DNA of 64,000 nucleotides from Bdellovibrio sp. KM01. GTDB taxonomy: Bacteria > Bdellovibrionota > Bdellovibrionia > Bdellovibrionales > Bdellovibrionaceae. The stretch covers positions 2,790,001 through 2,854,000 of the forward strand of contig NZ_CP058348.1 in the NCBI RefSeq assembly GCF_013752535.1, read 5' to 3'. Under the pieces are notes generated by a model. It was not told the DNA's origin, ran no database searches, and saw only the letters and a list, made by a program, of their open reading frames with translations. A program made the translations under genes and the position numbers. Positions 59,424 through 60,567 of this stretch are shown piece after piece; position 1 is the first letter of the stretch; every line of letters begins with the position of its first letter.

Positions 59424-59540
59424 TTATTTTTGAATTTGTTCACGCACTGACACGGTCAACATCAAGAATTTTTTTTCGTCGCTCGATAAAGTCAACACCA
59501 CACACCTAAAAGCTCCCAGCGCGCAAGGGGTATCGGTCAT
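59424..59540 (-). pseudogene. probable gene remnant or small ORF joined to a REP
   Basis: An open minus-strand frame ends in TAA at 59424 and codes MTDTPCALGAFRCVVLTL then SSDEKKFLMLTVSVREQIQK (38 residues from an ATG at 59540). The first codons (TDTP) come from the REP palindrome. The C-terminal part reads like a real strand-rich protein end and a terminator follows. The frame also stays open for some codons upstream through the REP pair. I think this is the 3' end of a gene cut off by REP insertion, but it could be a small gene using the REP for its start. Confidence 0.45.
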
Positions 59541-59582
59541 GCAGGCATCCAGCTCGATGACAACAAGGTGACCGATACCCCT
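59526..59582. repeat. REP palindrome pair 1
   Basis: AGGGGTATCGGTCA (59526-59539) and its exact inverse TGACCGATACCCCT (59569-59582), 29 bases apart. Confidence 0.9.
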
Positions 59583-59635
59583 CCTTAATTATCTCTCTAA
59601 TTTCCGCCGGAATGATCACCGCAAAATTAAACCTC

Positions 59636-59692
59636 GGGGTATCGGTCAAGTATCCTTCAGAAGCATGGTTGCCAAAGAGTGACCGATACCCC
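59636..59692. repeat. REP palindrome pair 2
   Basis: GGGGTATCGGTCA (59636-59648) and TGACCGATACCCC (59680-59692), same unit and nearly the same spacing as pair 1. Between pairs 1 and 2, and on to 59803, I see no gene. Confidence 0.9.
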
Positions 59693-59803
59693 TACGAACA
59701 CGCGGATAAAATAATTCAACATACGGACATCAACGCATCTGTTTTCCAACGAGTTCCACCTCACCCAAGAACCCATTTTGCAACGTCCACAAACATTCTC
59801 GAT

Positions 59804-60203
59804 GGGTATCGGTCATGCCCTCTGAAATCGAAAGGCTCAGATGAAACAACAAACCTTTTCCTCCCTAAAAATTCCTTGGAAGCATCGCTACTGCCACGGT
59901 GGGATTCTTCGCAAATCATCACTCGGTCGCGGTGCGAGACCTCTTTCACATCGAGATCCTATGCATCTGGTTTTTAAAGTTAATAAGGCAGCAATAAAAG
60001 GCGGACTACGTCACTCACGGAATTTTTCACTAATAAATAGGCTGATGAAAAAATATTCCGCCAAATTCTTTGTGAAAGTCGAACAGTTTTCCGTCCAGAC
60101 TGATCACGTCCACTTGCTGGTGAGAGGAAGTAAACGGTCGAACGTGCAAAGCTTTTTACGAGTGCTTGCCGGCCAGTTCGCGCAAAGGTTGACCGATACC
60201 CCT
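59804..60203. repeat. REP half-sites around and inside the RAYT gene
   Basis: GGGTATCGGTCA (59804-59815) lies just before the transposase gene. Its inverse TGACCGATACCCCT (60190-60203) lies within the coding sequence and encodes Leu-Thr-Asp-Thr-Pro. The two half-sites thus bracket the first two thirds of the gene. Confidence 0.85.
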
Positions 60204-60392
60204 AACCAGAAGCGAGAAGGACCGAGCGTTTGGAAGTATCGTCCATTTTCGAGAGTGATTAAGGGGTTTAAGCCGTATAAAATCGTCAAAGACTATATTC
60301 AACTGAATGAGCGAGAGGCCCAAGGAAGACCGTATTCAAAAACAAGACTGCGCGGCCTCAGCCAGGAACAGCTGATAGAGTTATGGAAATAA
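59841..60392 (+). CDS. REP-associated tyrosine transposase (RAYT)
   Basis: A 183-residue Y1 transposase of the IS200/IS605-related RAYT type (TnpA_REP). Visible: N-terminal HGGILRKSSLGRGARPLSHRDPMHLVFKVN, the HUH-type metal motif DHVHLLVRG, and C-terminal FKPYKIVKDYIQLNEREAQGR with the candidate catalytic Tyr. Such enzymes cut single-stranded REP hairpins. Three sets of matching REP sequences lie around it. GAAAGG precedes the ATG. Length is normal, so the gene may be intact, but one REP half-site forms part of the coding frame. Confidence 0.92.
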   Translation: MKQQTFSSLKIPWKHRYCHGGILRKSSLGRGARPLSHRDPMHLVFKVNKAAIKGGLRHSRNFSLINRLMKKYSAKFFVKVEQFSVQTDHVHLLVRGSKRSNVQSFLRVLAGQFAQRLTDTPNQKREGPSVWKYRPFSRVIKGFKPYKIVKDYIQLNEREAQGRPYSKTRLRGLSQEQLIELWK

Positions 60393-60417: not shown

Positions 60418-60459
60418 CTATCGAAATTTAAAAATCTCCAAAAAAAATGCCGCAAAACA

Positions 60460-60559
60460 GAAGCGGTCAAAAAGGTTCGAGTGCAAGGCGGAGGGCTATC
60501 CCCGCAGCGCAGGCGTGCTCTAAGCACGTCGAAAGCAATCGGGCCTTTTTCACCACTTC
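60460..60559. repeat. dispersed palindromic repeat, copy R3
   Basis: Outer arms GAAGCGGTCAAAAAGG and CCTTTTTCACCACTTC pair with two mismatches. Inside are AAGGCGGAG, a CGTGC-TCTAA-GCACG hairpin (60514-60528) and a terminal GGGCC. The outer AAAAAGG/CCTTTTT boxes match R1. Confidence 0.65.
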
Positions 60560-60567
60560 CCTCGCGG

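Follow-up and report, generated by a model that had tools for sequence, protein, structure and literature searches.

In-frame REP sequences have been described inside the tnpAREP transposase genes of subclass 2.4, where they lie between the HUH and Tyr motifs and are regarded as insertions with possibly little impact (Quentin et al. 2018, PMC6006769); this subclass corresponds to RAYT group 4 of Bertels et al., as mapped in the same work (PMC6006769). The case described here, from Bdellovibrio, is a variant of this known arrangement. The gene family concerned carries an inverted pair of half-sites, with a plus-oriented site at or over the start codon and a minus-oriented site within the coding sequence, where it falls between HUH motif and catalytic Tyr.

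The window (the whole 64,000-nucleotide stretch of Bdellovibrio sp. KM01 DNA that was analyzed) contains a gene for a RAYT-like Y1/HUH transposase of 183 amino acids (Table 1). A sequence-only reading of this DNA had let the gene span 59526-60392; the coding start is instead at 59841. The same reading had noted two perfect inverted pairs of a repeat upstream, one further repeat just before the gene, and an inverted copy within the transposase frame. The pairs are borne out by exact copies of GGGGTATCGGTCA at four upstream positions, the repeat before the gene (TGGGTATCGGTCA) is present with one mismatch, and the internal copy is exact and reads TTG ACC GAT ACC CCT, encoding Leu117-Thr-Asp-Thr-Pro121 (LTDTP, residues 117-121), as had been proposed. 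Within the window, all exact copies of GGGGTATCGGTCA are confined to the transposase locus. The label 'REP hairpin' does not suit the repeat, however: the unit is a 13-base half-site with an 11-base core, it has no GT[AG]G head, no internal palindrome and no hairpin of its own, its flanks are not conserved, and it is not dispersed. Between the transposase gene and lgt lies a further intergenic element (60459-60567; GGTCAAAAAGGTTCGAGTGCAAGGCGGAGG...), which is duplicated in the sister species and recurs beside lgt in other congeners; it looks like an unrelated, genus-wide intergenic repeat.

Table 1. Features of the transposase locus (positions are those of the window)
Feature	Position	Strand	Basis or remark
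Y1/HUH transposase gene, RAYT-like	59841..60392	+	PF01797 match; HUH motif D88-HVH; probable catalytic Tyr152 (DYIQLN)
Upstream half-site, left arm of inverted pair 1	59527..59539	+	Exact sequence match
Upstream half-site, right arm of inverted pair 1	59569..59581	-	Exact sequence match
Upstream half-site, left arm of inverted pair 2	59636..59648	+	Exact sequence match
Upstream half-site, right arm of inverted pair 2	59680..59692	-	Exact sequence match
TTGCAA, member of the conserved TTGC[AT] element	59778..59783	+	Usually 20-35 nt 5' of the start-proximal half-site
Start-proximal half-site (+S) TGGGTATCGGTCA, one mismatch; core GGTATCGGTCA at 59805-59815	59803..59815	+	26-38 nt before the start codon
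Internal cognate half-site (-I); + strand reads TGACCGATACCCC; core TGACCGATACC at 60190-60200	60190..60202	-	Exact match; paralogues; codon test

The protein has the HUH motif, the Tyr helix and the fold of the Y1_Tnp (HUH single-Tyr) superfamily, and it matches Pfam PF01797 (Y1_Tnp) at 40 bits, above the cut-off. H89, H91 and Y152 are invariant in the alignment, and the motifs of the family are DH[VILF]H, W..RPF and YIQLNExEA. A Foldseek search with the AlphaFold2 model (mean pLDDT 76.9) gave matches to 2a6o, 2vic and 4er8; the best PDB matches are to ISHp608 TnpA, with E. coli TnpAREP (4ER8) at rank 15. In the model, residues 117-121 form a helix end and the start of a low-confidence loop, placing the site between helix 99-117 and strand 136-139, in a loop that precedes the strand leading to the Tyr helix; this loop may be the one that tolerates extra residues with the least harm, and hence perhaps holds the site. 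Inverted cognate repeats flank the gene, as they do in RAYTs, but the repeat is present in 30 copies rather than the usual more than 100, it does not have the GT[AG]G head and hairpin of a REP, and the curated NCBIfam model REP_Tyr_transpos gives 28 bits, below its cut-off of 80; we therefore call the protein RAYT-like. With tnpAREP subclass 2.4 it shares the in-frame repeat between HUH and Tyr but not the motifs NH[IFV]H, WQ and YIxNNP, and it is set apart from IS200/IS605 TnpA both by the NCBIfam IS200 model (31.9 bits, below the cut-off of 55) and by loci that agree between sister species, unlike those expected of a mobile insertion sequence.

In the window genome, a single contig of 3.96 Mb, there are seven intact genes of this type, one broken copy and two distant relatives; the six other intact paralogues are 69-77% identical to the window gene. 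The genome scan that the sequence-only reading had called for yields 30 exact copies of GGGTAYCGGTCA, 24 of them at the seven RAYT-like loci, and congeners without the gene have about one to three copies of the repeat, indicating that it belongs to the genes and is not a dispersed REP. Across 66 genomes of the family the site is plentiful only where these genes or a divergent relative occur, with few exceptions. Many isolated copies, both of the window genome and of one congener, lie in coding sequence, an example being the LTDTP of a glycosyltransferase-like protein (identity judged by motif, not by annotation). A citrate-synthase-like MGIGHRVY (L002, around 1500; identity again by motif) happens to spell the half-site, both in the window genome and in a congener, which calls for caution in genome scans with the half-site motif.

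Alignment of relatives over the LTDTP segment, which had also been proposed, shows the internal site in all seven intact paralogues, with TGACCGATACC at identical codons. In the codon alignment of these seven genes the site stays invariant over 11 nt, the next longest such stretch measuring 4 nt, and only 5 of 82 conserved degenerate residues keep a single codon throughout, three of the five being the consecutive Thr-Asp-Thr of the site. The wider family, drawn from genus, family and phylum searches together with retrieved loci, comprises about 50 genes from Bdellovibrio and related genera. All 51 members have xT[DG]T in the loop between GQxxQ and RPF, no intact member lacks an internal site, and TGACCGRTACC is spelled in 48-49 of the 51. 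The site floats within this loop (1-27 residues past GQxxQ, in loops 17-53 residues long) and is read in frame 1, and internal sites other than those at start codons are nearly always in minus orientation. Codon x is TTG, ATG, GTG or CTG (Leu, Met or Val), with one GCG, such that the residue varies and the TG is fixed. Additional internal copies are present in L123, L124 and L125, and some genes have two or three copies.

We evaluated the codons of the site on a tree computed from the 51 genes with the site left out. The third base has changed once at one Thr codon of the site, never at the other, and once at the Asp codon, as compared with 16-27 changes at other conserved four-fold codons; ACC accounts for 27% of the Thr codons elsewhere in the family genes. 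The two bases that follow the 11-base core show no constraint, and the synonymous positions of the site stay frozen in a family whose protein identity falls to 37%. Because third bases at the Thr codons of the site are frozen where comparable codons are not, the constraint is on the DNA and not on LTDTP; on this codon evidence, the internal site is under DNA-level selection.

A separate subfamily, represented by six paralogues in one genome of another genus, carries an unrelated repeat, GGGGCGGTGCC, in minus orientation at about -52, in plus orientation at about -12, and in plus orientation inside the gene, in the same loop, where it encodes xGGA. Its internal copies are exact over a 10-base core in five of the six genes, and one copy has a second change. 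The presence of an unrelated repeat in the same loop excludes chance and residue constraint. The sequence-only reading would have taken homologues with the same residues but unrelated repeats as a sign of coincidence; here, the homologues with another repeat do not keep LTDTP and carry their own repeat instead, which favors a functional site. Its suggestion that the internal site acts in cis thus gains support from two sides, the near-zero synonymous change and the unrelated repeat of the relative. A third lineage, known from five loci of one type, has the site GGGGCGAGGGT, with ACCCTCGCCCC upstream and the complement inside the gene and near the stop codon; it fits the layout, although the five are too similar to one another to allow a codon test. 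Outgroup genes with VTG, ITG or LTG at the same place use varied codons, indicating that the residues alone do not force the DNA, and a search of the other subfamilies of the phylum with VTG/ITG/LTG found no intragenic repeat.

The orientation of the sites is regular across loci. Start-proximal sites are in plus orientation in 43 of 44 cases (one is minus), and in some genera the start codon itself lies within the site (ATGGGTATCGGTCA, giving MGIGH; GGTATGGGTCA, giving MGHQ). All 16 downstream sites are minus, none plus, and at several loci the gene's stop codon, TGA, forms the first codon of a minus site; upstream minus sites are mostly the second arm of an inverted pair. Inverted plus and minus cognate sites occur at all but a few loci, the right-hand one often being only the internal site, and the commonest layout (17 loci) consists of '+S -I' alone. 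The element TTGC[AT] lies within 40 nt of 39 of 46 start-proximal sites, as compared with 2 of 33 far-upstream plus sites and 7.5% of control stretches. It is present in the GGGGCGGTGCC subfamily as well, in the stretch that separates the two upstream sites, and may be part of a promoter or a cleavage site, among other roles. A sigma-54 reading of TTGC[AT] was rejected, as no GG stands at the required distance (by eye). At one locus (L277 436-867; G020:C4:86435-86866), a small secreted-protein-like, non-transposase open reading frame has a plus half-site near its start and an in-frame VTDTP (minus half-site) inside, a site arrangement that resembles that of the transposase genes.

Our preferred reading, to which we give about an even chance, is that the internal sequence serves its own element as a functional DNA recognition site, kept by selection on the DNA and probably autoregulatory. 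The encoded Y1 transposase would read the half-sites, and joint occupation of the start-proximal and intragenic sites would lower expression of the gene. This would amount to negative autoregulation with an auxiliary intragenic operator, by analogy with lacO1/lacO2. In the lac operon, the auxiliary operator O2 lies inside lacZ. Negative autoregulation would fit a low-copy, vertically kept, non-spreading transposase. The regulatory reading is also supported by an outgroup element, ACC[AT]TCG[GT]TCA, that lies between the -35 and -10 boxes, in their 17-nt spacer (TTGAnn in 10 of 11, TA in 11 of 11), at 11 outgroup loci of one family (L222-L226, L228-L231, L233, L234), once per locus and without an internal partner. 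This is an operator-like place, in which a bound protein would block RNA polymerase; the element need not be the same kind of site as the half-sites, and no recognizable promoter spacer was found around the start-proximal site in the main family. What speaks against autoregulation by the transposase is that the Y1 transposases studied bind single-stranded hairpins (PMC8266576), whereas a lone half-site forms no hairpin, and that a host factor could read the sites in its place. Somewhat more tentatively, we suggest a domesticated Y1 transposase lineage that is controlled via sites in its own coding sequence (start codon, inter-domain loop and stop codon), with the intragenic site rewritten as the recognition sequence changes, such that enzyme and embedded site co-evolve.

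The main rival reading, which we regard as unlikely, takes the internal site as the right-hand end of a transposase unit (for transposition or REPIN-type movement), kept since the enzyme must process the plus/minus pair around the gene. The strictly inverted orientation, plus on the left and minus on the right, and the stop codons inside minus sites speak for it, and TTGC[AT] 5' of the start-proximal site recalls the ends of IS200/IS605 elements, whose left cleavage or target sites it presumably resembles. RAYT genes are reported to be always flanked by two inverted REPs (Nunvar 2010, PMC2817692), and at the many loci here without a downstream site the internal one is the sole right-hand partner. 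One deletion remnant in the sister species (L161, around 14470; G014) has its left edge exactly beside an upstream half-site. The other deletion examined, which removed the 3' part of the truncated copy in the window genome (L271; G000), has no breakpoint at the sites, and neither of the two breaks at the internal site. Furthermore, the unit from the start-proximal to the internal site does not include the catalytic Tyr152, and the gene would not survive excision of this unit. Between sister species, seven of the eight loci agree in position and sequence, with no sign of recent movement, and dN/dS is 0.04-0.09 in orthologue pairs, both indicating that the genes are kept and are not moving. A copy in the window genome that the sister lacks was considered as an insertion, but it is the sister that has undergone a deletion. 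The lgt flanks of 24 congeners were compared to look for an empty counterpart of the window locus; the intergenic region is too diverged for boundaries to be placed. Of the two roles offered in the sequence-only reading, autoregulation is the likelier branch, and mobility is disfavored by the matching sister loci and by the missing Tyr. Its further idea that the gene arose by recombination through a REP is not upheld, because trees of the gene parts 5' and 3' of the site show no supported conflict and neither of the two deletions examined has a breakpoint at the internal site.

Alternatively, a host regulator that has nothing to do with the transposase could use the sites as operators. The similar element in the outgroup promoter spacer would agree with this, but the sequence of the site changes from one transposase subfamily to another, and congeners that lack the transposase have only background copies, making the idea improbable. 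We consider quite improbable a tolerated insertion, as has been proposed for other genes with internal REPs, in which the enzyme spreads its repeats and some of them settle, without a function, in a permissive loop of the transposase gene itself: the variable loop length and the genes with two or three copies would be expected, but such insertions would decay, whereas the synonymous positions are frozen across the family, every intact member has the site, and there are hardly any copies elsewhere in the window genome. For this family, the codon test largely refutes tolerated insertion. RNA-level control, with the start-proximal and internal half-sites pairing in the mRNA and closing the start region, is very improbable in our estimate. 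The sites are opposite in orientation with complementary cores, Watson-Crick pairing is complete in 20 of 46 pairs, and a further 5 depart from it only by wobbles; however, 21 of 46 contain an uncompensated mismatch, including all loci with the start-codon-altered GGTATGGGTCA, and the Y/R variants do not covary. That LTDTP is simply conserved as protein, with codons that match the repeat by chance, has next to no likelihood of being right, given the codon invariance, the varying residue x with its fixed TG, the floating position and the different repeat in the loop of the other subfamily, even though outgroups have xTG at the same place.

If we set the preferred reading, a functional and probably autoregulatory site, beside the known systems, the IS200/IS605 TnpA proteins (IS608, ISDra2) share with the Bdellovibrio family the fold and the Pfam family, but the latter gives no sign of being mobile at present, and its cognate sites are inverted half-sites, one of them intragenic. 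Gammaproteobacterial RAYTs, including E. coli TnpAREP (PMC2817692; PMC8266576; 4ER8), are similar in their Y1/HUH fold and in the inverted cognate repeats around the gene; unlike them, the Bdellovibrio family has no GT[AG]G head, a repeat that is not dispersed in the window genome, up to seven paralogues per genome, and a right-hand site that is intragenic. The likeness to lac O2 lies in the proposed logic, by which an auxiliary operator within the gene is paired with one near the start; the lac protein is unrelated, and binding here is putative. The mainly open-access literature searched contained nothing on such sites in Bdellovibrio and nothing on DNA-level selection acting on them. An intragenic site under such selection allows a direct test by synonymous recoding, and the family touches on the open questions of how RAYTs serve their hosts and of how their copy number stays low over long times.

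The closest likeness in gene structure is to subclass 2.4, in which the transposase reading frame likewise includes a repeat between the HUH and Tyr motifs. There, the repeats are REPs with a GT[AG]G foot and a hairpin, in a variable insertion between beta3 and alphaC (PMC6006769), whereas the Bdellovibrio family has an 11-nt half-site after the helix that follows the HUH strand, and YIQLNE in place of YIxNNP. In the Bdellovibrio family, moreover, the site is universal and under DNA-level selection, sites also contain start and stop codons, and recognition sequence and intragenic copy have changed together at least once; REPs inside tnpAREP genes had been thought to be tolerated, and here is a case with measurable selection.
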